From Microvirga soli (lineage in GTDB: Bacteria > Pseudomonadota > Alphaproteobacteria > Rhizobiales > Beijerinckiaceae): DNA of 64,000 nucleotides. The stretch lies in contig NZ_JAERQE010000011.1 of the NCBI RefSeq assembly GCF_016734765.1, positions 62,001 through 126,000 of the forward strand. The letters are read 5' to 3'. The notes below the pieces were generated by a model, which saw only the letters and a program-made list of their open reading frames with translations, was not told where the DNA came from and ran no database searches. Below, one piece after another: positions 26,739 to 52,773 of the stretch. The first letter of the stretch is position 1; each line of letters begins with the position of its first letter. The position numbers were made by a program, and so were the translations under genes.

Positions 26739-26938
26739 TGCATAGTTAGTCCTCAGGTGTCCGTCAGATGGGCTTAGATCATCATTCAGGACTAGCGTAT
26801 CAGCATACAACAATTCCCTCAGTCACTCATATACTCCTAGTCAAACCATCACCTGCAGTACGAGAGCATCTTTTGGCAGATCCGCTCGGCCTGCTTCTGC
26901 CAGTTTGACGACAGATGATGAACGGAAGACCCGTGTAG

Positions 26939-27298
26939 CTACGTACTCGCTAAGACGGAGATCCGCCGCCGGAGCCCCTCGCCGCTTGTAGAAGTGGGTG
27001 GCAGGAATTCGATACCTGCTGCCTCAAGAGCGAGACGTACGGCCTCCACCGTCTGAACACGCCGTGGGCCATACGTCGGATCATCTTGAGACTCGATCCT
27101 CATGAGTGAGCGACGCTCAATGTTGGCGCGCTTCGCCAAATCATCCTGCGAGAGGTTTAGCAGGGCTCGGGCAGCACGGATTTGGGCTGGCGAAGGCCAG
27201 TTCAATTCTTCAGTTCGCTTCGGATCACCCTCAACCATGTCTCTACTACTGATGGATAATACGACGGTTTTCTTCTTGATCCGCGGGCGAACTGTCAC
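26939..27298 (-). CDS. XRE-type helix-turn-helix regulator
   Basis: The 119-residue protein has one Cro/C1-type HTH at about residues 38-65 (IRAARALLNLSQDDLAKRAN, then IERRSLMRIESQ) and a C-terminal part with VEAVRLALEAAGIEFLPP that is common in small XRE regulators. It is divergent from the AAA+ cluster that starts at 27318, with only 20 bases between the open frames, so it is a likely regulator of that cluster. The exact start is not certain. Confidence 0.75.
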   Translation of the reverse strand: MTVRPRIKKKTVVLSISSRDMVEGDPKRTEELNWPSPAQIRAARALLNLSQDDLAKRANIERRSLMRIESQDDPTYGPRRVQTVEAVRLALEAAGIEFLPPTSTSGEGLRRRISVLAST

Positions 27299-27317
27299 AT
27301 AAAGTCACTGTGACAAA

Positions 27318-27881
27318 ATGTACAAACAGTGGTCGTATCCGATGGAACCCGAATCGCAAGATTATAGCCCAAGCACCCCGGCCCAACCCATAGCCAGTGC
27401 TAAAACTAGGATGGAGCTTTGCAGCTCTGCCCCTGATGGGGAGAGCCCGCTGCTAAGTGGGATAGATTCTCAGCAAGCTATATTGGATGGCAGGGGGAGC
27501 CTACCCATAGACCTCGATAGCTGGCGAACGATGGAGCCTAGTGTATTCGATGGCGAGAGATGTCTCCAGTTTCGCGCCGCGCTTTTAGAGATACAGGCGA
27601 GTACTGATATCACTCGGGATCCTGCTGTGTGTGTTGGAGCAGCACTCGATCTGATGTTCGGTGTTGGTTTAACCGCCCCTGAAACAAACCTGGTGATGAG
27701 CGCTATCTTGCTGCACACCTTGCAAGGTGATTTCACCGCGCACCTGGTTCTCATCCAAGCATTACGGCGGCTTGCCCGATCTACTACTGGTGACCACAGA
27801 TCCTCAGAACTCGCAACCCGCTGGGCTAAATGGAACCCTGCGGAAGCACCTCTGCGGCTAAATCAACTATCCCATCCTTGA
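27318..27881 (+). CDS. Unknown protein at the head of the AAA+ cluster
   Basis: The 187-residue protein has a Ser/Pro-rich N-terminus (about 60 residues) and a helical part with DPAVCVGAALDLMFGVGLTA and NLVMSAILLHTLQGDFTAHL. The helices look like a small all-alpha domain. I do not recognise a family. The next gene starts 44 bases downstream on the same strand. The true start may be the Met at about residue 9 (MEPESQDY). Confidence 0.6.
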   Translation: MYKQWSYPMEPESQDYSPSTPAQPIASAKTRMELCSSAPDGESPLLSGIDSQQAILDGRGSLPIDLDSWRTMEPSVFDGERCLQFRAALLEIQASTDITRDPAVCVGAALDLMFGVGLTAPETNLVMSAILLHTLQGDFTAHLVLIQALRRLARSTTGDHRSSELATRWAKWNPAEAPLRLNQLSHP

Positions 27882-27924
27882 CCTCCATTGACCCTGCTCG
27901 GCCTCTTCTTCTGGAGGACCACCT

Positions 27925-29643
27925 ATGCCGTCTATCAGCACGTCGTTCGCACGTGAAAATCTCCTCATCCATTTTCCACGGGTATTCCGTGCAGCTCTAA
28001 ACGATGACGTCCTGACCGGTAGCGTAAGACGTCAGTTAGTGCAGGATGCCAACGCTCTGGACCCGGCACTCGGCGCCCTCGCCGAGCAATGGCTGTCGCT
28101 CGGTCAGGATGGCATGGCCGTACGATCCTGGGCTCTGACTAACCGACCGCTGCCAGACAATGCCACAAAGCATAGAACAAGAAAGCTATCAGGCGGGACC
28201 GTCGCGCGCCACCTCCGTACCGCCCTAGAGCGTTTCGCGGCTGATCACGATAGTCCCACAGCCCGTGATCTTGCTGATGTGCTGCTGGTGGTGGCTAGCA
28301 CGGCTACTGATCGCCAGACTGCCGCAAGGCTCGCAGCCGCAGCTTGGAGAGCTCTGCATTGGGTGGAGCTGTACAGGTCCGAGTTGCTGGACTTGGGTCG
28401 TATGCTCGGTTTCGGCGCAGACAACCCTGCGGCTGCGACAGCGGATGGCGTGGCAGAGCCCGCGTCTCCTAGTGCCGGAGCGGCCGAACGGCGCGATGCG
28501 TTCGAGGTCGCCTTCAGCGACCTGGCCATTGAGGCGCGCCAGCTGGCGCTCGGCTTGAGTGCGCTCGCCGTCGGTGAACTCCCGAACGAGCTGGCCACCG
28601 CGAGGCTCTCATCCGCGGCACGGACCATAGGACGACGTATCCTCGCCCCTGCCGAAGACCGAGCCCGACAACAGGAGCGACGCAAGCACGAGTCAGCCAA
28701 AGCAGCTGTTGTCGAAGAGCCTATCTTCGACCCGATGGCTGGGCTGGACGAGATACACCCTGAAGGTGCTCCTGTCCCGGAGGGACATGTTGTCGTATGC
28801 CGCGAACTCAATACCAAGGGAGCGAGCAAGGGCAAGAATGTTGCTCAAGGCTATGAACCCGTGATTGGCGCGGCTCTACCTCTCGCGCCAACACCTGACG
28901 TAGGCCGCGTGAGGACGACGCTTCTCGCCAGGTTTCCTCATGCCGAAGACCTCATTGATTATATCTGTTGCGAGGTTGAGAACCATCCATGGGTCCGATT
29001 TCGACCAATCTTAATTGATGGTCCATCTGGTGGCGGCAAGACCCGCCTCGTCCGAGCGATTGCAGAGGCACTATCTGTTGGGCTTTACCGTGTCGACGCG
29101 ACTTCTGACTTGGGAGGAGGCTTTGGCGGCTTGGAACGGCGCTGGTACTCCTCTGAGCCTTGTGTGCCACTGATGGCTGTTGCCCGCTACAAGATTGCTA
29201 ATCCGCTTGTGCTCGTCGACGAGCTGGACAAGGCCTCAACGCGTACTGACTACGGAAGGATCTGGTCGGCACTCCTTCCATTCCTTGAGCCAGAACAGGC
29301 AAGCCGGTACCCAGATCCTTGTTTCCAGACCGACCTGGATCTCAGTCACGTAACGATCATTGGAACCGCGAACGAAACTTGGCGGCTGCCTTCTCCCCTC
29401 CTCGACCGTCTCCGAACCGTGACGCTGCCTCTTCCATCGGCCGAACACATGAACGCACTCGTTCCCAGCATTCTAGCTGACTTGGCCGCCGAACGCGGCC
29501 TTCACCCACAGTGGTTTGAGCCTTTGGATGGGATTGAGCACACCGCGTTGCGGCACCGTTGGCGCGGTGGTTCGCTCCGAAAACTAAGGCGTCTTGTCGA
29601 GGGCGTCCTACGTGTGCGTGACCGTCGCTCAACTTCCCACTGA
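27925..29643 (+). CDS. AAA+ ATPase, Lon-like
   Basis: The 572-residue protein has an N-terminal about 330 residues that are helical and not recognised, and a C-terminal AAA+ module: Walker A in LIDGPSGGGKTRLVRAIAEA (about residue 370), Walker B in PLVLVDELDKASTRTDYGRI, sensor 1 in VTIIGTANETWRLP, an arginine finger region LLDRLRTVTLPLPS and a late helical lid. The DELDKA box and the NET/N sensor resemble Lon and MoxR-like enzymes, but there is no Lon protease domain. It probably remodels a protein or nucleic-acid complex made by its neighbours. Confidence 0.85.
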   Translation: MPSISTSFARENLLIHFPRVFRAALNDDVLTGSVRRQLVQDANALDPALGALAEQWLSLGQDGMAVRSWALTNRPLPDNATKHRTRKLSGGTVARHLRTALERFAADHDSPTARDLADVLLVVASTATDRQTAARLAAAAWRALHWVELYRSELLDLGRMLGFGADNPAAATADGVAEPASPSAGAAERRDAFEVAFSDLAIEARQLALGLSALAVGELPNELATARLSSAARTIGRRILAPAEDRARQQERRKHESAKAAVVEEPIFDPMAGLDEIHPEGAPVPEGHVVVCRELNTKGASKGKNVAQGYEPVIGAALPLAPTPDVGRVRTTLLARFPHAEDLIDYICCEVENHPWVRFRPILIDGPSGGGKTRLVRAIAEALSVGLYRVDATSDLGGGFGGLERRWYSSEPCVPLMAVARYKIANPLVLVDELDKASTRTDYGRIWSALLPFLEPEQASRYPDPCFQTDLDLSHVTIIGTANETWRLPSPLLDRLRTVTLPLPSAEHMNALVPSILADLAAERGLHPQWFEPLDGIEHTALRHRWRGGSLRKLRRLVEGVLRVRDRRSTSH

Positions 29644-29669
29644 AATTTGCACAGCCACAGGAGAGCACC

Positions 29670-30002
29670 TTGCCATACGAACGTGCAGAGCTTACGCGCA
29701 GCCTTCCAATTCTTGAACGCCTCGTTGCCGACCTTCGTCACCTTGCCTCTGGCGGCGAGGCAGATCCCGCGGCCCTTGCTGCAGCCCCACTTCTGGATTC
29801 CTGGACGGTCGGCGCAACCTGGGTTCCGGAGCGCATGCTGGTTGGGCGCGTTACAGATCATCCAACCATCCCGGATGGTCCCTGCCAGACATCGCGGTTA
29901 TTCGTTATCTCCCCTGATGGAGGTTACGCCAGGACACTCTCGCGTTGGTACCGCCTAGGCGCCCCTGCACGCTTCCATGGAGGAGGCGCCTATGACGCCT
30001 GA
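29670..30002 (+). CDS. DUF6634-like small protein
   Basis: The 110-residue protein has a pattern I associate with the DUF6634 family of Hyphomicrobiales: LLDSWTVGATWVPERMLVGR, then VTDHPTIPDGPCQTSRLFV and GYARTLSRWYRLGAPA. Function is unknown. It starts 27 bases after the AAA+ gene. A related C-terminal segment appears in the protein at 31541-32140, so the cluster carries two versions of this domain. Assignment to DUF6634 is from memory of the family pattern and should be checked. Confidence 0.65.
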   Translation: MPYERAELTRSLPILERLVADLRHLASGGEADPAALAAAPLLDSWTVGATWVPERMLVGRVTDHPTIPDGPCQTSRLFVISPDGGYARTLSRWYRLGAPARFHGGGAYDA

Positions 30003-30069
30003 ATAGACTGTGAGTTGCTTGGTGCCGGCGCCAGCCCAGGATTATCCTGTGACCAAGGAGCTTACTGCA

Positions 30070-30339
30070 ATGCCCTTACTCCACTGCAGGCACTGCAAGG
30101 ACCGATCAGAGTTCCGTTGGCGAGGGTCGGTCCCCAGCTGTTCGGTTTGCGGTGAGGCCGACACCTACGCTCAGCTCATTGATGCCGATTTTAACGATTG
30201 TTCGGAACTGGCCACCCTGCGTGCTGACTTGGAGGCTGGATTTCAGGGTGTAGTGGGAACGATCCAGCTCCACGGTTGGCGCCCCTTACGGCAGCAAGGC
30301 AGATCGCGGGAGAGCCACAATCCTTCTTGGGGCGCCTAG
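30070..30339 (+). CDS. Small zinc-ribbon protein
   Basis: The 89-residue protein opens with LLHCRHCKDRSEFRW and then VPSCSVCGEADTYAQLID, i.e. two CxxC pairs about 18 residues apart, a treble-clef or zinc-ribbon fold. The rest is helical and then low in complexity. The ATG at 30070 is used since it sits immediately before the first CxxC. It could bind nucleic acid or another protein. Confidence 0.65.
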   Translation: MPLLHCRHCKDRSEFRWRGSVPSCSVCGEADTYAQLIDADFNDCSELATLRADLEAGFQGVVGTIQLHGWRPLRQQGRSRESHNPSWGA

Positions 30340-30433
30340 AAGCCTTGTTCAACTGCAATTTCCTTCTGTTTGCTGGCCAAACACAGTGCACCTCCTTCGT
30401 TTCGTGTCGACACCACGTTTGAGGAGATCGTTC

Positions 30434-30787
30434 ATGTCCCACCTCAAGAGGCATAAAAGGGGTTTCAAATACCACTGGTACATCAGCAGTTCTGCTTGGC
30501 TCCATAACGCAGCTCGCTTGGAGGAGCTTCGGCTTGCTGGTCACCGGTGCCGACTTTGCCGCCGTGGGCGTCCGCATGTACGGCTTCACGTACACCACGC
30601 GACATACGCTCGCTTGGGCCACGAGCGGCCCTCTGATCTTTGCGTTCTTTGCGAGGAATGTCACAGGGGCGTGACGGACATGCTGCGACAACGCCGGTAC
30701 CGCCGTCGGCGCTCCCTACCCCTCTTGGATGTGCGCGTGCTCGTCCCAGAAAGGCGGCTTGTCGATACAGTGCTGGAGGAGTTGTGA
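30434..30787 (+). CDS. HNH-endonuclease-like protein
   Basis: The 117-residue basic protein has the ordered elements of an HNH nuclease: CRLCRRGRPHVRLHVHHATY followed by LGHERPSDLCVLCEECH, giving two CxxC zinc pairs around a HVHH beta-alpha motif and a final His. A terminal Asn is not obvious in the usual place, so catalysis is likely but unproven. The stop overlaps the start of the next gene (TGATG), so the two are translated together. Confidence 0.7.
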   Translation: MSHLKRHKRGFKYHWYISSSAWLHNAARLEELRLAGHRCRLCRRGRPHVRLHVHHATYARLGHERPSDLCVLCEECHRGVTDMLRQRRYRRRRSLPLLDVRVLVPERRLVDTVLEEL

Positions 30788-31362
30788 TGGCATCCTTTGA
30801 GACAATCCATGTCCGATTGACAGGCGTCGCGCCGCTGTTGATGAGGAGCGGTCGCCTCGCCGACCCACTCGACCCGCACGCCCGAGAGATCGACCGTGTC
30901 GCACGAAAACGTCAAAAAACGGCAGCTGACTTAGAGGCGCTCGCACGCCTAGAATGGTTTGGAGGATTGTGGGTCGATGCCGGCCGGCCTTGTGTCCCAG
31001 CGGAGGCCATTGAAGCCTGCGTCGTAGAGGCGGCCAAGCTGCGCCGCGCCGGGAAGACAGTCAAAGCCGGGTTCATGTGCCCCTCCAACCCGTTGCTCCT
31101 ATACGATGGACCACATGAGCTTGATGAGACGTTCGCGGATACGAACTTCCATCTGCGCGTTGCCGTGCAGATCGCAGGTAAAAGGACAATGCGAACACGT
31201 CCATGCTTCCGTGCATGGTCTCTAGAATTCGATGCGCATTTTATGCCCACAGTACTGGACCGACGCGATGTATGCGAATACCTGAAAGTTGCAGGCGACC
31301 GCGTTGGACTTGGAGATTGGCGACCGAGATTCGGAAGGTTTTCGACTCAGATCCTGAGCTAA
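30787..31362 (+). CDS. Phage-type conserved protein of unknown function
   Basis: The 191-residue protein opens with IHVRLTGVAPLLMRSGRLAD and contains RPCVPAEAIEACVVEAAKLR and RPCFRAWSLEFDAHFMP near the end, followed by VGLGDWRPRFGRF. The LTG-PLLM opening and the GLGDWRP-GRF ending recall a group of hypothetical proteins common in tailed phages and integrated elements; no activity is known to me. It overlaps the HNH-like gene by one base, so it is part of the same operon. Confidence 0.7.
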   Translation: MASFETIHVRLTGVAPLLMRSGRLADPLDPHAREIDRVARKRQKTAADLEALARLEWFGGLWVDAGRPCVPAEAIEACVVEAAKLRRAGKTVKAGFMCPSNPLLLYDGPHELDETFADTNFHLRVAVQIAGKRTMRTRPCFRAWSLEFDAHFMPTVLDRRDVCEYLKVAGDRVGLGDWRPRFGRFSTQILS

Positions 31363-31540
31363 CCGCTTGGGACGGCTATTCGCAATGAGGCGAGGCCGGG
31401 CCAGGCACGGCAAGGCTCAGCCATGGTGAGGCAAGCTCTGGCATGGACCCCTTCTGGGGCGTTCCCGCCGCTCGGCGCCGGGCGGGATGCGGACGCACGC
31501 GCATCCCAACCTCATGCCTGCGATGAAGGAGGTCAGCACG

Positions 31541-32140
31541 ATGTCTGAGACTGAACGAGAGATAAACCCGAACTATGATACCGGCCGTTGGGTGTGTGTG
31601 GCATGCTGGACGGAGGGACTAGGTAGCCTTCCTTGTGCCTGCCCCTCGTGCGGCAGCGTTCGACTGTGGGCAACAGCAAACGCTGGATCCGTCCATTTCC
31701 GCTCAATGCAGGATTGCTTTTACGACTATCTTGGAGCCGCAGTGGCAAAGCATGGGATATGGATAGGAGAGATGCTCGGTGACGGCTTCACCCGAGTTGC
31801 CCCTACGCCCCGTATCGCGACGGAAGCCGCCATTTCGGCCGTCGAAATGAGAAGGACCACGTCTCCACTCCTCCTGGAGGAAGGAGGCGGCCCGTCCGAG
31901 TCGGAGCTTTCGGCAGCTCCGACCCTTGTCAACTGGCACCTTTCCCTTGGCTCAGACAATCGCATTCGGGCAGCTGGCCGAGTCCGCTTCGGGACGACAG
32001 AGCAAACCTCAGTCATCAGCACAACAGCCGTGATCCTGCTGGATCCTGCTTTGAGGTGGTTGCGGACTCTCACCACGGTGTACAACTTAGGTCGAGGCTA
32101 TCCACTAATCCACGGCGTCCAGAGCGCCGAGAACGCATGA
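31541..32140 (+). CDS. Zinc ribbon plus DUF6634-like domain protein
   Basis: The 199-residue protein starts MSETEREINPNYDTGRW. It has an N-terminal zinc ribbon (VCVACWTEGLGSLPCACPSC), a middle helical part, and a C-terminal segment LVNWHLSLGSDNRIRAAGRV then LRWLRTLTTVYNLGRGYPLI. The latter resembles the W..GRV...RTLSRWYRLG pattern of the small protein at 29670-30002. The start at 31541 follows a GGAGGT site. The two domains in one chain may explain how the separate small proteins at 29670 and 30070 work together. Confidence 0.65.
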   Translation: MSETEREINPNYDTGRWVCVACWTEGLGSLPCACPSCGSVRLWATANAGSVHFRSMQDCFYDYLGAAVAKHGIWIGEMLGDGFTRVAPTPRIATEAAISAVEMRRTTSPLLLEEGGGPSESELSAAPTLVNWHLSLGSDNRIRAAGRVRFGTTEQTSVISTTAVILLDPALRWLRTLTTVYNLGRGYPLIHGVQSAENA

Positions 32141-32420
32141 TTGAGGCTCAGTTCGCTCAGCAATGCCGAGGAGGCAAGCGACGCTGGGAGAAACGGTTCG
32201 GTCCTCCGCTACCGCCAACAGGGAGCGGGAGATCCGATTAGATAATTGATTAGCCCAGCGGCAGAGGACCGTATCTCAGTCGCGCTTTCCAAGTCCAGCT
32301 TCGAAGATCGGCGTTCCAAACCTCACTCCTCTTGATGAGATCGGCACCCTCTTGGATCAGAGCGAGCACGGTCAGCTCTGCTGGAATGTCTCAGGGCTCA
32401 CTTACTGAAGGAACTAGTCC

Positions 32421-32660
32421 ATGCCAAAAGAGAAACAGACTGCCTCGATACCATCTATCCGCCCATTCAAACCTTTTAATCTCGGTAAGCATCTCGATAG
32501 GCAGCGAGGAGCGGCTTCTCCACCAATTCTAGCCATTGATGGGCACGAGGTTGTGACTGAGCTTCACCCAGAATTTCGATCATTTCTTCAAACACTTGGA
32601 CGTTGGTCGGCACGAAAAGCCCTACGGAATGGCGACCTATCATCCAATGATCAGCACTGA
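32421..32660 (+). CDS. Possible small protein, unrecognised
   Basis: A 79-residue frame starts with ATG after a GAAGGA site and reads MPKEKQTASIPSIRPFKPFN, with LAIDGHEVVTELHPEFRSFL in the middle. Composition is protein-like but there is no family and no overlap with other genes. It may be the last gene of the AAA+ cluster or a chance frame. Confidence 0.35.
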   Translation: MPKEKQTASIPSIRPFKPFNLGKHLDRQRGAASPPILAIDGHEVVTELHPEFRSFLQTLGRWSARKALRNGDLSSNDQH

Positions 32661-33893
32661 CCGCGTAAAGTGATGCCTTGAGCAGTCAAGTTCCTTTGCT
32701 CATAATGGAGCTAGGGACCGAAGCCTAACGTGGGCGGCTGTCCAACAGGTACGCTCAGACTTAGCGCCCTTGGACTTGGTCGATGTGGCTTTTGGTGGGG
32801 CTCAACCGTGCCAGTGTCGGTTTCCGGCAGAACCTATCTCGATGTTGCCCCGAACGGAATGAACGTCATCAGGGGCAGCTTATGACGAGCGCTAGATCAG
32901 CCAATTTGTAACGTACGTGCTTTAGCCTCGGCTTACCAGCTGGGCTTCGAACGCGAACTCCCATGTAAGCACCAGAGACTTGGTTCTGGAAAAAAGCCTG
33001 CTCAATCGCGAACATTACGTGACGCATATTCCTGAATGAGCACCTTTTCTTCCCATCCAACAAACTATTGATGTTACTGCGATATCAACTTTTTGTACCA
33101 CCGTGCTGATTGTGGCATCGCCTTCAATCGACGGGATCAGACACATTCTGATCCTAACCCAAGCCCTGATCTCCCCGCTCCCGGTGGTGCGAGTACCCAC
33201 GCTGTAGGTCTCACTACAACGCGTGCTCGGGTGTCGCTATGCAGGAGGTGGGCTGTCAATGCCTGCCGATTGCAAACCACGACGAGGCGCAACCATGCTT
33301 TTGAGATGAGTGGCATCGAGGCTAAGCCTAGCGTGATGAAGCCACAGGCCGCGATAGGTATGTGGGTAATGCTGGTCTCTGAAGGTGCGTCAATTTTCAC
33401 GACCACATTTCTCGGGAATCTTGAAAGATCAAGTTTTCATGTTCACGACCCACTCTGGCCTCGAAGCGGCATCGCGTCTACATCAGCCTCCCATTGCGTG
33501 TACCAGCCTCTCTAGACCTAATGCTGGATCAAACGGCAGAGGCGTCACAAGGCTTGATCAGAATCCCCTGGTCTCGTGGAAGAGGCAATTGTGCGGGATT
33601 TGAAGCCTTGTTCATTCGCGGGGCAACATGTCGTGCTTTTTCCTAGTGCCGTTCTTCTCACTGACACCTGAGTTTGCCTGCTAGGGTGTAGGGTCCGTTC
33701 GTCGCGGCACTATCGGGGAACAGATTTCGCACAACTGCTTGGCCCCTCGTGGCTTGATGGGAGAGGAAGAGCAATCGAGGTCGTGGCCTACCCGCTCCTA
33801 AGAGCAGCGCCTCGCAGCCCCCGACCTTGAGACCATAAGGTCAACCCTATCTTCCAGATCCAGCTTTGGATGCGTTGCAGTGACGGATTATGT
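32661..33893. other. 1.2-kb stretch with no convincing gene
   Basis: Several medium-length frames exist on both strands but none shows a protein-like composition or motif. It separates the AAA+ cluster from the serine recombinase and is probably degraded or non-coding accessory sequence. Confidence 0.45.
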
Positions 33894-35771
33894 CTACCGT
33901 ACCTTTGGCTTCTTCTTTGCCATCGTTGGATAATGTCGCCCCAAGACTGGTCCCTTGGGAAGAAACGTCACTTCACCCTCGTATCGGATCCGTAGCGGGG
34001 GGTGATCGGTGTCCTTCTCACCGTCGAAAGGCTCAACTGCCAACGTGCCGGCATTTGCGTCGTAGACGTAAATGACTCCGCTGGGCATTCCAGTTCCGCC
34101 GGCAATCGCATGTAGCGAGCCCTGGATTTCTAGCTGAAACCTTCTCGCACGCGGCTCACGCCTGATGACGGCCTTAAACATGGCCTTAAATTTCCTGACG
34201 GCGCTTAGTGTTTCAGGATCCTTAATCTGCTTAAGATCGTACGGAAGATCCTTCAACAAGTCGCTCAGGCTTTCCGCGTAGCTTGCCAACTGAGATGCGA
34301 CAACCCTCTTTGCGCGCCCGCTCTTCGCAGAAGCAACGATCTTCTCTAAACGATCTATCTCCTCCTTGATGCGAGTTCGCTTTTGTTCGAGATATTTGCG
34401 CTCATCGTCGTCACAATCATTGACGATGAGCTTGTCGAAGACCGCAATTTTCTCAGCCTTCAGGCGCTTGAGGTTTTTTTCCGCCGAGGCCAGGCTGTGT
34501 CCGAGACCTTTTTGCGCCTGTTCGATCTCAAGATTTTGGTGACGCTCAAATTCTGCGCTGGCTCGTGGATCCATCAGGAAGCGCTGGACCGCCTCAAGCA
34601 TGCCACGACTAAGATCCTCGTCCGGCACGCCAAGCGGCCGTGTGCAGACCCGCTCGTTCTGCCCATCCACCTTCCGATCCCTGCTTCCCCAACAAACCCA
34701 GCGCGAGCGTTCAGGTCCAAACCGGCTATCTGCCACCATGGTACAAGTCCGCCCACACTCGCAGGTTAGTCGTCCTGTCCACAGGCGCTCTTGCGCGCCA
34801 GCCCGCTTTCTTTGAGCCGCCTTGATCTCCGCTCGCTTGGCTTGGGCAGCATCCCAAAGCTCTTCTGAGACCAAGGGCTCAATGTGTTGCCACCGATAGT
34901 TGGCTTCTGGCCCTTCAACGAGTTCCCTTTTTCCGCTGAGCGGATTCTTGAACACCTTGTAATACCCTGCTCGCCGTGTGCCTTTGTACGCCGGGTTCGG
35001 CACAATCGCGCTCATTATCGTATTAGGGTTCCAAGCCTCTGCGCGAGGAGGACGGACGCGCCGTTCCATCAAAGTTTTGCAAATTTCGGGACCGGTTAAT
35101 CCGTCGGCCACCGCTCGGAACAGCCAAACCACATGCTCAGCGAGTGCGGGGTCCGGCTTGAGAAATTTCATAGGCTTGTTGCCGACCTGATCCCATCCGT
35201 CCGCTAGGAGAAAGCCCCAAGGAGCTGGCCACATGGCATGACCTCGTTCGAAGTGCGCCCTCTTCCCGCCCTGAACGCGGTTGAAGAAAATTTTGAGCTC
35301 CTCGCGGGCAACAAGCACTTTGATGCCGGCTACGAATGGATCGAGGTGGCCAGAGTCTGCAGCGATAACTTCAATGTCTTTTGATCTGCAAACATCAAAA
35401 ATTCGTTCGATAGCCGAACTTACGCGTGCAGCACGCGATGCCTCTGCCAGATAAATTCGCTTGAACTTACCGGACATGGCATCTTCCAGCATCTTGCGCA
35501 GACCTGGCCTTTCTCGGTCGTCGACAGTGCCGCTCATGTCGTCGATGTAGCGAGCTATGAGGACGTCATCTGGGCGCAGCGCACGGGCCAGCGAGCAATC
35601 CGCAATCTGACGCTCTAGAGACAACCCGGAGTTGAGAGTGCTGTCACTTAGCCTCGCATACTCAACAACTGGAACCTGTGATGGCAAGCACTTTACTGGA
35701 AAGTAAGTAACGTTACCTTCCGGAAGCTGGAGCTTCTTCCTGACATCCCTCATGCCGCTCAGATCCATCAT
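33894..35771 (-). CDS. Large serine recombinase
   Basis: The 625-residue protein has an N-terminal resolvase catalytic domain with the serine in VVEYARLSDSTLNSGLSLER, the RYIDDMSGTVDDRERPGLRK segment and YLAEASRAARVSSAIERIF; a recombinase domain (AWNPNTIMSAIVPNPAYKGT); a zinc ribbon (TGRLTCECGRTCTM and a downstream CW...CTR); and a C-terminal coiled coil rich in Lys/Glu (about residues 430-500). Large serine recombinases move phages and integrative elements between short att sites. No att pair could be identified. It is divergent from the repressor-like gene at 35894. Confidence 0.9.
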   Translation of the reverse strand: MMDLSGMRDVRKKLQLPEGNVTYFPVKCLPSQVPVVEYARLSDSTLNSGLSLERQIADCSLARALRPDDVLIARYIDDMSGTVDDRERPGLRKMLEDAMSGKFKRIYLAEASRAARVSSAIERIFDVCRSKDIEVIAADSGHLDPFVAGIKVLVAREELKIFFNRVQGGKRAHFERGHAMWPAPWGFLLADGWDQVGNKPMKFLKPDPALAEHVVWLFRAVADGLTGPEICKTLMERRVRPPRAEAWNPNTIMSAIVPNPAYKGTRRAGYYKVFKNPLSGKRELVEGPEANYRWQHIEPLVSEELWDAAQAKRAEIKAAQRKRAGAQERLWTGRLTCECGRTCTMVADSRFGPERSRWVCWGSRDRKVDGQNERVCTRPLGVPDEDLSRGMLEAVQRFLMDPRASAEFERHQNLEIEQAQKGLGHSLASAEKNLKRLKAEKIAVFDKLIVNDCDDDERKYLEQKRTRIKEEIDRLEKIVASAKSGRAKRVVASQLASYAESLSDLLKDLPYDLKQIKDPETLSAVRKFKAMFKAVIRREPRARRFQLEIQGSLHAIAGGTGMPSGVIYVYDANAGTLAVEPFDGEKDTDHPPLRIRYEGEVTFLPKGPVLGRHYPTMAKKKPKVR

Positions 35772-35893
35772 TGTTTTGTGTTACGCTACATGTACAATAT
35801 GGCTGTGGGCGATGGGAGTCAATGCTCTTCTGTGTCGGCTCCTGCTGATCTACGAGTAAATTAAAGCTCGTACCGAATACCGTCTGTTGCGGA

Positions 35894-36937
35894 TTGAGAG
35901 TGGGAAACCTAGTGAACAAAGCTCGGCTCTACGGCAACACACTCGTCGCCGAACGTCTGAAAGCGGCGCGGAAAGCGGCAGGCTTCTCTTCAGCACGGGC
36001 TGCGGCCGCTATCCATGGCTGGCCCGAAAGCACTTACCGCAGTCACGAGGCTGGCGTGCGCGCTATTCCGAATGCCGACCTTGCTAAGTATGCCGCCGCG
36101 TTCAACATCCCTGCGGACGACCTTCGATCTGGGGACATTCCATATGGAGGCAGCTTCGGAGAGCCGGCGTTCTACTCTCCGGTGCCGGACACCCACGCAA
36201 ATCCCCAGGCAGATCGCAGCTCCAATGCCAAGCGCAAATATAGGTCGCCTAATCACCAGCTGATCAGCGCGCGTTTAGCGGCAGGCTTCAAAACTGCGGC
36301 GGCTGCCGCGGATCGGTATGGGTGGCGGCGCTCGACCTACTTTGCCCATGAAAATGGACAGAACCAAGTCACCAAAGACATTGCAGAACTCTATGGTTAC
36401 GCTTTTGGTGTGGACCCCGCCTGGATCCTGGGCCGGGAAGATGCAGATAAACCAAGCTCGACCCAAGCACGGCATCCGGACGAGGTGCGACAATGGCAAG
36501 AGGCATTGGAGCACCGTCAGCGTGTTTCTCGTGAAAGCGGCCTAGATCCCCGTCTGCAATTCTTACCAGAATTCCCCACTACGACTTTGGCTCTCGCTAA
36601 CACCGAGACCACAATCAAATGGTCGCAAAAGACTACTGGTCGTTCTTGGGGCATTCCAGCCGACTACCTTGATGAGGTGATTAACGCCGACCCAGGATCT
36701 TTGGTGTTTGCGGCTCTGAACCTACCGGACACGAGGCTAGGATTGCAGCCGGGAGATCGGGTGTTGATCGATACTTCAGACCGAGATCTGGGCACGAGCG
36801 AGCCTTTTGCCAGGGTTAATCCAGACGGCCTCCTAGCCGTGGTTTGGCCGGCGGGCGGATCAGAACCAGCCTCAATCTCCGGTGTTGTTGGGAGGATCGT
36901 CGCCTTTATAGCCCGTCCACGGCATGGCGCGGCCTGA
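35894..36937 (+). CDS. Double-HTH, S24-like phage-repressor-type regulator
   Basis: The protein (about 340 residues) carries two HTH units in tandem: LKAARKAAGFSSARAAAAIH with GWPESTYRSHEAGVR (residues about 23-58), and ISARLAAGFKTAAAAADRYG with WRRSTYFAHENGQ (residues about 124-158). The C-terminal part GLQPGDRVLIDTSDRDLG and ISGVVGRIVAFIARP matches the LexA/C1 beta-fold, without an obvious Ser-Lys dyad, so self-cleavage is doubtful. The listed start is a TTG; GTG codons at 35900 and 35912 are alternatives. It probably represses the divergent recombinase gene. Confidence 0.8.
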   Translation: MRVGNLVNKARLYGNTLVAERLKAARKAAGFSSARAAAAIHGWPESTYRSHEAGVRAIPNADLAKYAAAFNIPADDLRSGDIPYGGSFGEPAFYSPVPDTHANPQADRSSNAKRKYRSPNHQLISARLAAGFKTAAAAADRYGWRRSTYFAHENGQNQVTKDIAELYGYAFGVDPAWILGREDADKPSSTQARHPDEVRQWQEALEHRQRVSRESGLDPRLQFLPEFPTTTLALANTETTIKWSQKTTGRSWGIPADYLDEVINADPGSLVFAALNLPDTRLGLQPGDRVLIDTSDRDLGTSEPFARVNPDGLLAVVWPAGGSEPASISGVVGRIVAFIARPRHGAA

Positions 36938-38262: not shown

Positions 38263-40038
38263 TCAGTCGAATTGGAACCCGAACAGGCCGCCGGTCTCGC
38301 TCTCATCCGAGAGGTGTGTTGGCACCACGATGAGGTTACGGTCCAGACTGTCCGGCAACGGCAGGGTGTCGAAAATATCCGAATTGAGGGTCACGATGTA
38401 CTGGCCGCCGAGCCGCGTGGCGGTGGCGGCCCCCAGGTCAAGCGCATTCGCGACCTGGCGCTCATCGACACCGTCGAAAAGATGGCTGTCGTGGATGAGG
38501 AACCCTGGGCCTTTGCCCCGTCTCGACCAGATCGAAAACAGGGCATGGTCGAGGCAGAAGATCTCCATGTTGGAAATCCCACCGCCCCGGTCCCCCTGGA
38601 TCGAAATACGGAATTCCGGTCCGTTCTCGGTAGCTTCCACCTCGAACTTCCCCTGCCGGTCCTCGTAGAGGAAGCTAATGGCTTCGCCTATCAGGAGGAT
38701 TGCCTCGTCTAGCCGATCCCGCCGCAGGTGATGGTCTTCTTGAAGCCGACGCTTAATGCTCTTCCGGTCGATGCCAAGCTGGGTGGTTTCACTCTCCAGG
38801 GCTTCCGCGGCCTTGAAACGCTCACGCAGAGAGGCGGCCTCCGCCTCGGCGTCGGCAAGCCGCTTCTGCAGCGCCGTGAAATCCTCCAGGGCGCCGCGTC
38901 CTTCCAGCATCCGCAGGATCTCGCTGCGCTCAGCGTCCAGTTCCGCTGCCCTGGTCTCGCCCGCGACGAGCTCACGCTCGATGGCGTCGGTCTCCTCCCG
39001 GAGGCGCAGCCTGCGGTTCTCTACCACGGATTGATGAAATCGTTCGACATCCTCGAACCGACGCTTCGCACTGTCTGGAAGCTCGATCCCAACAGCCTGA
39101 TAGAGACGAGTGACGTCATCCCGTTCGGGAAGACGCTCACGCTTCAGAACTTCCTGGAGGTGTGCGAGGGTTTCCCGGAGCGGGACGGCCCGGCGGGCGA
39201 GAGATTGCATTTCCGTCTTGGCGCTGACCGCTCGGCCCATCATTTCCTGGTAGGCCTCATGGACCTGGAACCGGCTGAGTTGCTCGCGCAGCTTGGATGC
39301 CTTAGCCTCAGCGAGGACAACGGCCGGACGAAGCTCCGCCACGGTTCCGATCAGATGGCCCAGCGCTCCGCCCTTGGCCGCCTTCTTGAGCTCTTCCAGC
39401 TGGCCTTCGCGTTGCCGCACCATGTGCAAGTCGCGGGGGATGCGCCAGTCGAGCCCCAGCAGATAGGATAGGTTCACCTGCCAATCCCAGCGCTGCTGGG
39501 CCTCGGCCTGCTTCTCCGGGTGCAGGAACGCGCCCGATCCGTAACGCCGTGCAAAGTACGCGAACAAGGCGCGGAACGATGGGGTGTAGCTCTCCTCGAA
39601 AGGCGAGCCTTTCACAACCTCGGGAAGGTCGAAGAACCGATGGGCTAGGAAGTCCTTCCACTCTTCGTTTGACACGAACTCGGCGCCCGTGTCCTTGTCC
39701 TTCTTCGTGGTCAGCCCGAAAAGCTTCGCATTGTCTCCGTCGATGAATACTCGTGATGCCTTGGAACCGCTACGTGTGACGTCCACCTCCCGGCTGCCAA
39801 TCAGGAACCGGCCGCTGAAGGTATAGGCGGCCAGCGCATCGTGGCGGAGGAGGCTGTTGGGATCTGCCTTCCCGCCTAACAGGAAGTGAATAATCTCGAT
39901 CAGGCTGGTCTTTCCCGCGCTGTTGCGCGTCTGCCTCTCGTTCGAGCCCGGTGCCTTGGTCGACAGGACGACGTTGAGGCCCGGATGGAAGGTCACGCCC
40001 TTGAAGGTTGGCAGGCTACTGCTAATGGACAGGATCAT
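38263..40038 (-). CDS. ABC-3C system ATPase (SMC/Rad50-like, DUF2326 end)
   Basis: The 591-residue protein has an N-terminal ABC head with a P-loop variant in RNSAGKTSLIEIIHFLLGGK, a long coiled-coil (about residues 230-470, rich in Glu/Arg/Ala/Leu heptads), and a C-terminal head with GPGFLIHDSHLFDGVDERQ, the Walker B/D-loop form of DUF2326 proteins. Such ATPases are the motor of ABC-three-component systems, predicted conflict/defence systems. Its ATG (40038) overlaps the stop of the middle component by 4 bases, and that gene overlaps the third component, so the three are one translational unit. Confidence 0.85.
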   Translation of the reverse strand: MILSISSSLPTFKGVTFHPGLNVVLSTKAPGSNERQTRNSAGKTSLIEIIHFLLGGKADPNSLLRHDALAAYTFSGRFLIGSREVDVTRSGSKASRVFIDGDNAKLFGLTTKKDKDTGAEFVSNEEWKDFLAHRFFDLPEVVKGSPFEESYTPSFRALFAYFARRYGSGAFLHPEKQAEAQQRWDWQVNLSYLLGLDWRIPRDLHMVRQREGQLEELKKAAKGGALGHLIGTVAELRPAVVLAEAKASKLREQLSRFQVHEAYQEMMGRAVSAKTEMQSLARRAVPLRETLAHLQEVLKRERLPERDDVTRLYQAVGIELPDSAKRRFEDVERFHQSVVENRRLRLREETDAIERELVAGETRAAELDAERSEILRMLEGRGALEDFTALQKRLADAEAEAASLRERFKAAEALESETTQLGIDRKSIKRRLQEDHHLRRDRLDEAILLIGEAISFLYEDRQGKFEVEATENGPEFRISIQGDRGGGISNMEIFCLDHALFSIWSRRGKGPGFLIHDSHLFDGVDERQVANALDLGAATATRLGGQYIVTLNSDIFDTLPLPDSLDRNLIVVPTHLSDESETGGLFGFQFD

Positions 40039-40286
40039 GGAGCACCCTGCCCGGGCCGCACCAGACCGTCCGCGTCCTCCACTGCATAAATCGTGTACAG
40101 GAATGTCAAGGCGAGCACGAACCAATCAAATGACAGGGGCGCCCCAGCCTGACGGCTGCCCCGTACCGCACGCACACGATCCCACAGGTCGGACACCTCG
40201 CGGGGACGATCTAACTGGGCCAGTATCTCCGCCCCAACGCCGATCAGGGCGCGGTGGGGGGAAAGATGTTTGCCGGGAAGAATCAT
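40035..40286 (-). CDS. ABC-3C system middle component (type 6-like)
   Basis: The 83-residue protein starts MILPGKHLSPHRALIGVGAE and contains REVSDLWDRVRAV and LSFDWFVLALTFLYTIYAVE, the pattern of middle component 6 proteins (winged-helix-like adaptors). It sits between the C-terminal-domain protein and the ATPase with 4-base overlaps on each side, exactly the expected order. It probably links the ATPase to the effector. Confidence 0.8.
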   Translation of the reverse strand: MILPGKHLSPHRALIGVGAEILAQLDRPREVSDLWDRVRAVRGSRQAGAPLSFDWFVLALTFLYTIYAVEDADGLVRPGQGAP

Positions 40287-41224
40287 GCGTTCACCTTGGA
40301 AGGATGATCCTCAAAGATGTCGCAAGCCTCAAATAGGTAGGCGAGCAGGGCATGAGCAGCCACTTGGCGCTCTGGCGTCACGCTTCCGATGCCGGTGACT
40401 CCTTCGTAAAGCGAGCGCATGATCGCGTTCGGCGACAGCCCTTGCATATTCAGATCCTCGTAGCGATCCCTGAAAATCTTCGCCAAACGTGTTCCCAGTT
40501 CAGCGTCGGGGTGCTGGTCGATGTAGTAGCGGACATGCGGGGTGTTGCGAAACCCAGACAAGAGCAGGTGACTCCAGCATCCTGTGATCTTATTGAATTC
40601 GAGCTTGTCGTACGGCACGGCCGCGACTGGGCCCGCATCCAGCTGGTCCGCGTCGACGCTCAGCATGACCGCCTTGATCAGATCGCTGACCTCTTCCAGC
40701 CGCATGTTCTGCGTGTCCTCGGCAGTTGCTGCCGGCCCGAGCAAGGCGATGATGTGGTCCTCTGCAAGCCGGAACACACGGTCCTCAAAGCCTTGCGGCC
40801 CAATGGCGCCGAAGCGATGGTTCCGGTTCGCGGTCTCAAGCTCCTTGAGCTTGATAAGGGCCTCCACCGGCAGGCCGTCAAACAGGTTGTGGACGAAGTG
40901 CCACTCCTGCATGATCGGGGCGAGCCCGGCCGCTGCCTTGGCATAGTCGTCGCTGATCTTGTTGACGACGTTATCCACGTTCAGCGCCGCATCGTGGAGC
41001 TTGCCGTAGCACTGAAAGAGCTGCCCCGATTGAAGGAGATATCCGTCGCACCCCTTGTCACCCCGGCGTCCGAACGCGCGCACGGGCACGAAGTCGTCAC
41101 CATGCAGCTTGGACATGACCTTGGAGAAGAAGCCCTGGAACGCGTCGCCGTGCAGCCGCCGCAGGGTCAGTTCCAGCAGGGCTTGCCACTGCCAGCGTTG
41201 TTCAGAGGTCATCCAAGAGGTCAT
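40283..41224 (-). CDS. ABC-3C system effector/CTD protein with nuclease-like N-terminus
   Basis: The 313-residue protein has an N-terminal region that resembles a restriction-endonuclease fold: VRAFGRRGDKGCDGYLLQSG followed by QLFQCYGKLHDAALNVDNVV, i.e. an Asp and a Q-x-x-x-K on neighbouring strands. The C-terminal about 180 residues are helical and end in HALLAYLFEACDIF, fitting the ABC-3C C-terminal domain. Predicted function is cleavage of nucleic acid when the ATPase senses invasion. First gene of the three-gene operon. Confidence 0.78.
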   Translation of the reverse strand: MTSWMTSEQRWQWQALLELTLRRLHGDAFQGFFSKVMSKLHGDDFVPVRAFGRRGDKGCDGYLLQSGQLFQCYGKLHDAALNVDNVVNKISDDYAKAAAGLAPIMQEWHFVHNLFDGLPVEALIKLKELETANRNHRFGAIGPQGFEDRVFRLAEDHIIALLGPAATAEDTQNMRLEEVSDLIKAVMLSVDADQLDAGPVAAVPYDKLEFNKITGCWSHLLLSGFRNTPHVRYYIDQHPDAELGTRLAKIFRDRYEDLNMQGLSPNAIMRSLYEGVTGIGSVTPERQVAAHALLAYLFEACDIFEDHPSKVNA

Positions 41225-42046: not shown

Positions 42047-43318
42047 TTAGGCCCACAGCCGTGTGGGGTTCTGTGTGGGGTTTTCGGTCGGAACCTCGAC
42101 CTGCATCCGCTTTGCATCGAGGGCTTCACGAGCTAACTGAGCCTGTCGCATAAGCTCAAGCCTGACGCTACCCATGTAGCGTTCGGTCGTACCAAGGTCG
42201 CCGTGGTTCATGCTATCGCGGACGATCAGCGGGTCAGAGCAGGCTTCGGCCAGACGCCCACCGGCAGCGTGGCGCATGTCGTGCATCCGCACATTGGTAA
42301 GCTTCTGCGCCTTCTTCCACCGCGCCCACTCTGTCCCGATGCCCTCGTAGGTCAGCCGGTAACGCTCTCCCGTAACGTGATCCTGACCCGTCTTGTTGTT
42401 CCAGAAGGTCCGCTTCCCAATGTAGGTCCACACATACTCCGGGTTGTAGGGCTTCTTGGTCTCCGGGTCGATCTGCGACAGGATCAAGTTCTCGATACTC
42501 GGCGTCATCGCAAGCACGTAGGGCTTAGGCTCCTGTCCCTTCCTGGCCTGCTTCTTGAGGCTCTTGAAGGTAATCGTCCGCTTCCGCCAATCGATATGAT
42601 CCCACCGAAGGTCAACGAATTGTTCGCGCCGGGGGCCACCGGCCAAGGCGAAGCACAGGGCCGGAAGGTGGTCCTTGCGATAGGTCTTGAGCATCAGTTG
42701 CTCATGCTCGTAACTGAACTCAGTATGGCGCGGGGTCTCCTTGACCCACACCACTTCCCACCGGATCGGTTGGATTTGCCGCCCCTTCGATTCCATGTGG
42801 GAGAGGAACCACTTCATCCGTTCCCCGACCGAAATGTTGACGGTTCGGGCCGAGACGAGCTTGCGCGGCTTCGGCTTGCCGGTCTCCTTGTCGATCTTCG
42901 GTTTACCGTCCTTAGTCCGCAGGGTCATAAACTCCTTCTTCCGCTTATTCACCATGTCGATGATGGTTTCGGTGTCGATGTCCGAGATCATGAAGGTCGG
43001 GCCAAGGTAGCCGACGATACGATTGAAGTCGGCCTCGATGTCCTTGATCCCCGACCACTGCCCCTCGTGATCTTCAAAATACTCGGCTACGGCCTCATCG
43101 AGGGTCTGGTCAACGATTTTGCCCTTTGGGTTGCGGACGCGGTTCGCTTCCGCTGCCCTCATCTCGGCAAGCATCTCTTCGCGCCACTGCTTTTGAAGAG
43201 CGTTCGCCTTGTCTTTGTTCTTCTTTGATCCGGTCGCAAGGATGTCCGTCATGCGGGTATGCCGCTTGCCCTCGATCTCCCATTCGGCCCGGAAGAAGCC
43301 TTTGTAAGCGTATGCCAT
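42047..43318 (-). CDS. Tyrosine recombinase (phage-type integrase)
   Basis: The 423-residue integrase has an N-terminal arm-binding-like part (MAYAYKGFFRAEWEIEGKRH), a SAM-like core-binding domain, and the catalytic domain with Arg in ALAGGPRREQFVDLRWDHID, H-x-x-R in VRMHDMRHAAGGRLAEACSD, and the late His and nucleophile Tyr in MNHGDLGTTERYMGS. It ends in PTENPTQNPTRLWA. It lies 48 bases from attL and reads toward it, so it is the recombinase of this island. Confidence 0.93.
   Translation of the reverse strand: MAYAYKGFFRAEWEIEGKRHTRMTDILATGSKKNKDKANALQKQWREEMLAEMRAAEANRVRNPKGKIVDQTLDEAVAEYFEDHEGQWSGIKDIEADFNRIVGYLGPTFMISDIDTETIIDMVNKRKKEFMTLRTKDGKPKIDKETGKPKPRKLVSARTVNISVGERMKWFLSHMESKGRQIQPIRWEVVWVKETPRHTEFSYEHEQLMLKTYRKDHLPALCFALAGGPRREQFVDLRWDHIDWRKRTITFKSLKKQARKGQEPKPYVLAMTPSIENLILSQIDPETKKPYNPEYVWTYIGKRTFWNNKTGQDHVTGERYRLTYEGIGTEWARWKKAQKLTNVRMHDMRHAAGGRLAEACSDPLIVRDSMNHGDLGTTERYMGSVRLELMRQAQLAREALDAKRMQVEVPTENPTQNPTRLWA
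42059..42094. repeat. Paired GTGTGGGGTT direct repeats, left end
   Basis: GTGTGGGGTT occurs at 42061-42070 and 42073-42082, followed by a CGGTCGG word. Nearly the same 36-bp block lies near the other end of the island (52992-53027). Here it is also the coding sequence of the last residues of the integrase. Arm-type integrase binding sites or an old duplicate of the integrase 3' end are the two explanations. Confidence 0.6.
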
Positions 43319-47405: not shown

Positions 47406-47459
47406 TGGATTTCCCTGGCCAGGGAACGATAGATTGCGTGCAATCTGCTCGTGCTACCA

Positions 47460-50539: not shown

Positions 50540-51187
50540 TCACTTCTTCTGAGTGGCGGCTTCCGCGATTTTCCGCGTCAACTGGAATACGGTAGTGGAT
50601 GGTGCTCCGTATGGAACTCCTTCCTCTTCTCTACGCTTCAATTGGCGCTCTGCCCGATCCTGAGCCTTTGCAAGGTCTTTAAGAACCGCAGCACAGTCTA
50701 GCGTCTTCCCCTTTGACGGGTCGTACTGCGCACAGAGACTCTTGAGGTGCTTCTGGACCTCGTGTCTGTCATGAGGCTTATGGAAATCATCGAAATGAAG
50801 GATAAGCCAAATCTCAAAGCAAGGATTTGATCTCGCGACGTTAATGCCCTTACCCTCGCAGACCCGAAGCGCTTGGTCAAAATGAGGATGCTCATCGCGA
50901 TCAAATACAGCCCAAATTTCGTCTTTCTCCTCAAACGAATCGCGCTTCTTCCTGCTGCCCCTTGTCAGCCCCATCTCTTGCGCGCGATCCGAAGCAGTTT
51001 CAGCGATCTTCGAAGGATCGCCTACCGCGCCAATAGCTTCTACTTCAACCAACGTGCCCTTAAAAAGAACTTTTAAAGCATTGAAGTAGTCGGGCTCTGT
51101 ATTTTTACCTTCACAGTACAGAATGAACTTCTTCTTGGGAGTGACCTTCGCAGCAGGTCTGGACAAACTCGGAATGCGGCGAGACAT
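50540..51187 (-). CDS. RloB-like protein (AbiL-type defence partner)
   Basis: The 215-residue protein resembles RloB: it starts SRRIPSLSRPAAKVTPKKKF, with FILYCEGKNTEPDYFNALKV, DEIWAVFDRDEHPHFDQALR and NPCFEIWLILHFDDFHKPHD, the Toprim-like motifs (EGK...D-x-D...). RloB and RloA occur together next to restriction systems and in AbiL-like phage-abortive pairs. It overlaps nothing and starts 2 bases downstream of the RloA-like gene. Confidence 0.85.
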   Translation of the reverse strand: MSRRIPSLSRPAAKVTPKKKFILYCEGKNTEPDYFNALKVLFKGTLVEVEAIGAVGDPSKIAETASDRAQEMGLTRGSRKKRDSFEEKDEIWAVFDRDEHPHFDQALRVCEGKGINVARSNPCFEIWLILHFDDFHKPHDRHEVQKHLKSLCAQYDPSKGKTLDCAAVLKDLAKAQDRAERQLKRREEEGVPYGAPSTTVFQLTRKIAEAATQKK

Positions 51188-51189
51188 GA

Positions 51190-52485: not shown

Positions 52486-52773
52486 ATCTGACCTCAAGTG
52501 CTAACTAGCACGATTTATAGCCCGATTTTGCAAAAAACCAACTAATTTGTCAATTAAATTGCGTCATGGCTACATTAAGATATCATGTAACGTGTCGCCA
52601 TAAACACTTTTGGACCTGAGATGTGACCTTCGCCTTCGAGGCAGCGCCCTTCAGAATTAGATGGAGGCAGTAAATCCGGCAGCCGAGTGGACCAATCCAA
52701 AGGTGCCATTCCCCGCGAACGGCTCGTGTTTCCCAAGCGGTGGGCGCATAATAGCGGGGTAGGAGGGACAACC
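52486..52773. other. AT-richer intergenic stretch
   Basis: No gene is seen; the first about 90 bases after the RloA start are AT-rich and probably hold its promoter. Confidence 0.4.

Follow-up and report, generated by a model that had tools for sequence, protein, structure and literature searches.

VIPR, a relative and possible ancestor of CRISPR in which the Vipr protein works with a gapped RNA guide (vrRNA), was described in a 2026 preprint (PMC13142463; doi 10.64898/2026.04.26.720920); experiments have addressed its phage form. The vrRNAs are characterized there as possessing 9-16 YNNGG units, DNA being read with a skip of one base, and seven types are distinguished; types III and V are found in defence islands and possess predicted nucleases (PMC13142463). 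Here we describe a gene cluster of Microvirga soli (NCBI RefSeq assembly GCF_016734765.1, contig NZ_JAERQE010000011.1, positions 62,001 to 126,000; this stretch of 64,000 nucleotides is referred to as the window), which probably represents a host-encoded, nuclease-equipped VIPR system joined to a module centred on an AAA+ ATPase.

The cluster resembles VIPR in its Vipr protein, in the tandem GGY/NN guide beside vipr, in the presence of an accessory gene, and in an island setting like that of types III and V. It differs in that the accessory gene encodes a small HNH protein and in its combination with an AAA+/helical/DUF6634 module (in relatives often with a phosphoesterase). A word search of the main text of the preprint found neither HNH nor AAA, although its supplement may have them (PMC13142463). 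Class 1 CRISPR-Cas systems, with their Csm3/Cas7 backbones, appear comparable in the predicted RAMP fold of the guide-binding protein, but their guide is contiguous, whereas here it is gapped and the repeat has a periodicity of five bases. No Cas family was recognized among the eight cluster proteins using Pfam, NCBIfam, and PADLOC, the last of which returned only weak P-loop, helix-turn-helix (HTH), and HNH matches. The initial annotation of this DNA held that no described system possesses this gene set. For the core this must be withdrawn, since it is that of the described VIPR. For the window's helical, AAA+, and DUF6634 proteins, PADLOC gave no family match beyond the weak P-loop ones. As far as our searches show, the composite locus and its motif-like guides are new.

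Vipr, its HNH neighbour and the guide array

The gene originally assigned to a "phage-type protein" does match phrog_4652 (E 1e-45), and sequence comparison identifies its product as Vipr. The single sequence matched PDB entry 36pp_D, the "SUSP1 Vipr protein," across residues 6-191 (E 7e-28), and a profile search revealed the same entry as the sole significant one (E 8e-57). An alignment of 65 sequences gave a predicted model with a mean pLDDT of 95.1, for which the leading Foldseek hits were mainly RAMP subunits, Csm3-type and others, from complexes of types III and VII (best E 3e-5, TM 0.35-0.57). The gene is rare, being present in 3/289 genomes of the class and 3/297 of the order, and the genome of the window carries a single one. 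Two earlier candidates were dropped: a phage replication module, since the phage-type protein is Vipr, and a relation of protein P0006 to Gemini_AL1 Rep (Pfam E 0.25).

Two sets of loci were compared. For the first, profiles built in this analysis were run on 67 loci, including 12 host vipr loci, one of which is the window. The second comprises 22 new vipr loci (L455-L476) from the Bradyrhizobium-type family of G112, where vipr is found in 23/391 genomes; features within 7 kb were recorded. In the window, the HNH gene is located upstream of vipr, the TGATG overlap of the two being legible in the sequence as had been claimed. The HNH assignment itself is weak by Pfam (E 0.009, below cut-off) but clear by PHROGs (2e-7). 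An HNH gene lies 0.3-0.45 kb upstream of vipr (E <=1e-27) in nine of the 12 first-set host loci, the exceptions being L261 with a weak match and L253 and L260 with none, and near vipr in 21 of the 22 loci of the second; this gene can be taken as the accessory (vap) gene of a VIPR system. Alignment of nine clear sequences (that of the window and eight others) shows no loss of the zinc cysteines or of the His pair in any of them. On plasmids, vipr relatives were found in six records and HNH relatives in five, and the four records common to both possess HNH directly before vipr.

The gene calls of the initial annotation stand, but a non-coding array directly downstream of vipr, at 31389-31444, went unnoticed. 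It reads GGCGA GGCCG GGCCA GGCAC GGCAA GGCTCA GCCAT GGTGA GGCAA GCTCT GGCAT; nine of its 11 units have an exact GGY, two have GCY, and one is of six bases. The tandem-unit score of this run, the best in the window, is 15.5, the second-best on either strand of the 64 kb reaching 8.5, while 30/30 order-1 resamplings of the window (one strand scored) gave 11.0 or less. The number of units lies within the published range, and with GGY kept, the NN positions vary among units and among loci. An array adjoins vipr in all 12 host loci of the first set (window included) and a guide was found in 21/22 of the second, while 1/34 control loci without vipr reaches a score of 11. The L252 array lies inside the end of an open frame, and the scores of L255 and L256 (9.5 and 10.0) are within the control range. 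Folding of the vrRNA tails gave z <= -2.7 relative to shuffles in 6/12 host loci. Rfam returned no matches at gathering score for the stretch 26800-36000. Most host loci carry a single guide, unlike L059 (3602-4318), L066 (3570-4101), and L261, where very long GGYNN arrays, representing several vrRNAs in tandem, are located beside vipr.

A FastTree phylogeny of 98 Viprs (rooted at the midpoint, second locus set excluded) places ten host Viprs, all but those of L260 and L261, in one clade of 19 tips with a support of 0.85. The remaining nine tips represent IMG/VR contigs that have an HNH match, and 20 more viral loci with such a match fall outside the clade. One of the nine contigs matches a contig of cell genome G272 (105,247 bases), and because size and guide are the same, it is probably not a free virus. 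As a partner of vipr in phages the HNH gene was dropped, since in 5/5 phages opened (L048-L052) a conserved small protein of another, non-HNH family directly follows vipr. We take this protein to be of the "winged-helix" kind, a label of our own. It is presumably the published vap1-like DNA-binding partner. Among 85 viral loci, this non-HNH family was found near vipr in 41, an HNH match instead in 29, and neither in 15.

The AAA+ module and its surroundings

The vipr, HNH, guide, AAA+, and helical genes are linked in other genomes, and known phage replication genes did not account for the cluster. In the first set, a Lon-like ATPase (E <1e-60) is found near vipr in four loci (the window, L054, L255, and L256), a weaker AAA match in L252, L253, and L258, and none in the other five. 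Locus L054, from Bradyrhizobium japonicum USDA 123, possesses mostly the ingredients of the window in a rearranged order: a divergent XRE gene followed by HNH, vipr, guide, helical, metallophosphoesterase, Lon-like ATPase, and DUF2130 genes. The second set has, besides HNH and guide, an XRE gene in 19/22 loci, a helical gene in 19/22, and an AAA+ gene (E <1e-8) in 19/22, together with phosphoesterase in 14, DUF6634 in seven, and DUF2130 in five; the 22nd locus is a partial vipr without any of these partners. Five of the 19 AAA+ genes are Lon-like. The remaining 14, which take the corresponding place, are of another type, and 13 of them carry the HEAGH or HESGH motif as in FtsH; the one such protein that was scanned consists of AAA plus peptidase M41, again as in FtsH. 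One AAA+ gene of the second set has no Walker A match.

The Lon-like AAA+ protein of the window (P0002) was correctly named, its AAA part matching the Lon model at E 9e-21 and containing Walker A, Walker B, sensor, and Arg-finger patterns. Unlike Lon protease, it has no C-terminal Ser-Lys protease domain; the Lon match covers the AAA part only and the protein ends at 572 amino acid residues. The DUF6634 assignment likewise held (Table 1). The model of this protein has a pLDDT of 88.8, a fold search of the PDB with it gave no match at E 0.001, and DUF6634 is named nowhere in the literature searched. The proposed zinc-ribbon/DUF6634 fusion (31487-32140) does show the C-terminal DUF6634 match, albeit slightly below cut-off, and for the zinc ribbon in 30010-30339 there is a weak match only (E 0.003, below cut-off); a profile of the latter protein found no relative in the other 66 loci. 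Among the 67 loci, the profile of the helical protein identified 13 open reading frames (ORFs), located close to AAA or vipr genes.

Searches located the Lon-like ATPase at 42 places, of which two, on Chelatococcus and Devosia contigs, are counted twice. Within 6 kb, DUF6634 is present at 22 of the places, XRE at 13, the phosphoesterase at 13, the helical protein at nine, a GIY-YIG-like protein at eight, and vipr at four; seven places have none of these partners. Since 38 of the 42 lack vipr, the ATPase module also stands alone, and AAA+/helical/DUF6634 is a second module which often occurs without vipr. The genome of the window contains four more ATPase loci at E <=1e-50 and two weaker ones; at two loci of this genome, L029 and L030, the ATPase is followed by further related genes in tandem. 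GIY-YIG-like proteins lie near AAA/DUF6634 genes in L031, L035-L040, L053, L264, L267, L269, and L275. That of L037 matches the PADLOC candidate PDC-S14 (E 6e-23), with Pfam GIY-YIG slightly below cut-off, and the phosphoesterase beside the ATPase relative of L034 matches candidate PDC-S10 (E 2e-8); neither protein is present in the window. AAA or DUF6634 genes are also found near profile-matched genes, which we take to be Tn7-like TnsA and/or TnsB, in L028, L033, L145, L152, L262, L268, and L273. In some genomes, transposons may therefore carry the module as cargo.

The ORF listing of the window places the seven rightward ORFs, and the XRE gene divergent from them, where they had originally been reported (Table 1). 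Starts at 30070, 30434, and 31541 are likely the true ones, rather than those of the longest ORFs, because ribosome-binding sites are visible in the sequence. XRE profile matches adjoin HNH/vipr genes in many relatives, and the inverted repeat between the divergent genes is, from its sequence, plausibly an operator. After the cluster follows an ORF of 79 residues (32421-32660) with a plausible ribosome-binding site.

The cluster lies inside a stretch of mostly lower G+C at 26-53 kb of the window. Lamassu-like and AbiL-like genes are located nearby, the former pair matching LmuB/LmuA more weakly than PDC-M68, and the setting has the appearance of a defence island within mobile DNA. The island also contains a 559-residue FG-GAP/RTX-repeat protein (47451-49130).

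Table 1. Features of the cluster and of the surrounding island, in window coordinates
Feature	Position	Strand	Basis or remark
XRE-type regulator	26939..27298	-	HTH_3 E 1e-4, slightly below cut-off; divergent from cluster
Inverted repeat TGTCACA/TGTGACA, candidate operator	27293..27315	.	Read in sequence, between divergent genes
Small helical protein (HEL family, our own label)	27318..27881	+	Start uncertain
Lon-like AAA+ ATPase (P0002), 572 aa, no protease domain	27925..29643	+	
DUF6634 protein	29670..30002	+	PF20339 E 6e-15
Small zinc-ribbon protein	30070..30339	+	Weak DUF1451 match
HNH-type protein, candidate Vipr accessory protein (Vap)	30434..30787	+	Pfam weak, PHROGs clear
vipr gene (Vipr RAMP protein, phrog_4652)	30787..31362	+	TGATG overlap with HNH gene
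vrRNA guide, 11 tandem GGYNN-like units	31389..31444	+	Non-coding, directly 3′ of vipr
Candidate vrRNA 3′ tail, two GC-rich stems (z 0.1 relative to shuffles)	31445..31486	+	Folding
Zinc-ribbon + DUF6634-like protein	31541..32140	+	DUF6634 match at C-terminus slightly below cut-off
Large serine recombinase	33894-35771		
Lamassu-like/PDC-M68 (ABC-3C) gene pair	38263-41224		PADLOC PDC-M68B E 1e-142, PDC-M68A E 2e-17
Tyrosine integrase	42047-43318		
AbiL-like pair	50540-52497		AbiLi E 2e-89, AbiLii E 3e-25; RloB domain
tRNA-Gly	53117		

What the guides decode to

The guides of L054, L253, L256, and L258 in the first set have a common core which, on the other strand and with a one-base skip, reads G-[VLA]-[IM]-[SR]-G-T, and nearly every guide of the second set decodes likewise. 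The fixed motif G-[VTLIA]-[ILM]-S-G-T is present in 22 of 25 guides of this lineage, compared with 131 of 200,000 guides assembled at random from the same units, and in 0/7 other host guides (that of the window included, L261 left out). Column counts for 24 guides reveal V, T, I/M, L or A after the G, then mostly I/M or L; the serine is TCN in 19 and AGN in four, and mostly T or N/K stands before G. This variation resembles that of the protein motif itself. The decoded sequence appears to be the motif of He_PIG immunoglobulin (Ig)-like domains, which are found both in proteins of phages and in large cellular ones, and we read the guide pattern as reflecting selection for recognition of the coding DNA of such domains.

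Collections were scanned for guide targets by exact matches only. The core pattern is found in viral contigs at more than 120 stretches among the matches listed, and in 79 of 84 matches (80 loci kept; longest of six frames) the skipped base lies in the third codon position. The 25 peptides translated at core matches are mostly Ig-like repeats, for instance NSSTGVISGTPT. Among the viral contigs, a single one (L432) contains an exact match to a 20-base stretch of the L253 guide; the match lies inside a gene for a protein of 688 residues with He_PIG domains (PF05345, E 2e-11) reading QTGLISGTPTAFA, and 27/32 bases of this guide agree with the gene. The He_PIG name was tested with Pfam for L432 only, the other viral peptides being named by eye. 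Comparison of the He_PIG part of L432 with a phage collection gave mostly "major tail protein" among the 40 matches listed; no rhizobial phage is named among the 93 phage records resembling it. Phages are the likely target of the guides, though other targets are possible.

This raises the question of whether the HNH-VIPR and AAA+ genes constitute an innate, germline-fixed, RNA-guided immunity, with one protein-motif guide per lineage and no stored memories, a proposal which we put forward tentatively and rate slightly below an even chance. The guide would recognize the coding DNA of the G-x-I-S-G-T-P motif in Ig-like domains of phage structural proteins. Because the skipped base corresponds to the codon wobble position, such a guide would be indifferent to synonymous codons and a whole protein family would become readable; the AAA+ module would complete the destruction. 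The guides follow the alternative serine codons (TCN, AGN) and the natural variants of the motif.

Several results weigh against He_PIG genes of phages as the target. Cell genomes contain He_PIG genes of their own, with open frames of up to about 11,000 residues, in 83/382 genomes of the family (77 over the cut-off), so the target need not be exclusively viral. Four of the 23 vipr carriers have them (three over the cut-off), and the guides of these four agree with their own He_PIG genes in only 15/22, 13/18, 14/22, and 9/12 positions; the genome of the window has none. The guides themselves provide further reservations about our overall reading. The 25 share a common descent, some of them being identical, so that 22/25 does not represent 22 independent events, and three (L463, L472, and L474) miss the motif. 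Only ten of 21 second-set guides beat all ten of their own permutations against 81 viral loci. For none of the guides with at least nine units did we find a perfect target over the full length. Two 18-base parts of the window's guide have no viral matches, and two 16-base parts have nine and 26, which extend to at most 18 and at most 20 of 22 bases and were judged to be chance; this guide differs from the motif-type guides of the relatives. In the viral set, a skip of one base scored highest in 16 of 21 guides and tied in five, a preference that is biased because the set was chosen with the one-skip pattern.

A target inside the own locus was considered and dropped, since none of 11 guides compared with their own loci stood out at skip 1, the nearest being L260, whose value was reached by 3/60 permutations. 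The values of L260 at skip 2 (reached by 0/60) and L054 at skip 0 (2/60) were put down to chance, 33 tests having been made at skips 0-2, and skip 3 merely recovers the array itself. Single-protein scans of the genome and viral collections were uninformative.

Proposed function and alternatives

The Vipr RAMP protein, the overlapping HNH gene, and the GGYNN guide together identify the core as a host-encoded VIPR of an HNH type. Most probably it serves to defend the host against phages or other mobile elements. The initial annotation had suggested defence or element maintenance; co-occurrence, island setting, and an RNA-guided anti-element core support the defence part of this proposal, while for the composite as a whole we infer the function. 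By analogy with the published mechanism, Vipr would bind the vrRNA, and the NN pairs would base-pair with double-stranded DNA, one base being skipped between pairs. The HNH protein would then cut the bound foreign DNA. To judge from linkage, the AAA+ ATPase and its helical and DUF6634 companions would come into play once the target is recognized, for instance to remodel or clear the complex or to add a second effector step, and the XRE protein may keep the operon low until needed.

A number of features of the locus do not sit easily with a nuclease-equipped VIPR joined to the AAA+ module. The Lon-like type of AAA+ gene occurs in only five of the 22 second-set loci, and vipr is found at so few of the ATPase places as noted above (4/42); furthermore, the AAA module is upstream of vipr in the window and mostly downstream in relatives. 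The array is irregular, its tail folds no better than shuffles (z 0.1), and L259 has an opposite-strand run with a score of 15.0 located 6 kb from vipr, so such a score alone is no proof. In the HNH motif the usual Asn is Asp in eight of the nine clear sequences, including that of the window.

The second of these features would be expected if an HNH-type VIPR and an independent AAA+/DUF6634/helical module for defence or maintenance were two neighbours sharing an island and a regulator, as would the reversed gene order, the frequent company of a phosphoesterase or GIY-YIG-like protein at the ATPase places without vipr, and the HNH-vipr loci without a helical gene (L252, L254, L255, L257, and L259; Azospirillum, G272). 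Against this, the AAA+ gene and the helical gene are each kept near HNH-vipr in 19/22 loci of one family, two different AAA+ types occupy the same place near it, and the linkage recurs on the named plasmids L054, L253, and L256. We consider this explanation rather unlikely.

Less probable still is silencing, in which Vipr would repress the transcription of competing elements and the HNH protein would be a binding or structural factor. Repression has been shown for the SUSP1 system according to the main text of the preprint (PMC13142463), and the Asp substitution would be in keeping with it; the full conservation of the zinc cysteines and His pair argues against it, as do the predicted nucleases of types III and V, for which target destruction is suggested there (PMC13142463). 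That the VIPR of the window is a relic in decay, its guide no longer functional, is very doubtful, for although its guide has a six-base unit, two GCY units, and no target that we found, the ORFs of the window are intact and variant or six-base units are common in the arrays of relatives.

On the reading that we prefer, a host-encoded, HNH-equipped VIPR joined to the AAA+ module, the window locus and its Bradyrhizobium-type relatives would represent a bacterial form of VIPR with a nuclease and an AAA+ partner, located on chromosomes and plasmids, some of them from named soybean isolates. If the guides are indeed fixed readings of a motif, they would constitute an RNA-guided recognition of patterns, intermediate in its logic between the innate and adaptive kinds of immunity, and the passage from a weapon of viruses to an immunity of their hosts would become directly testable.

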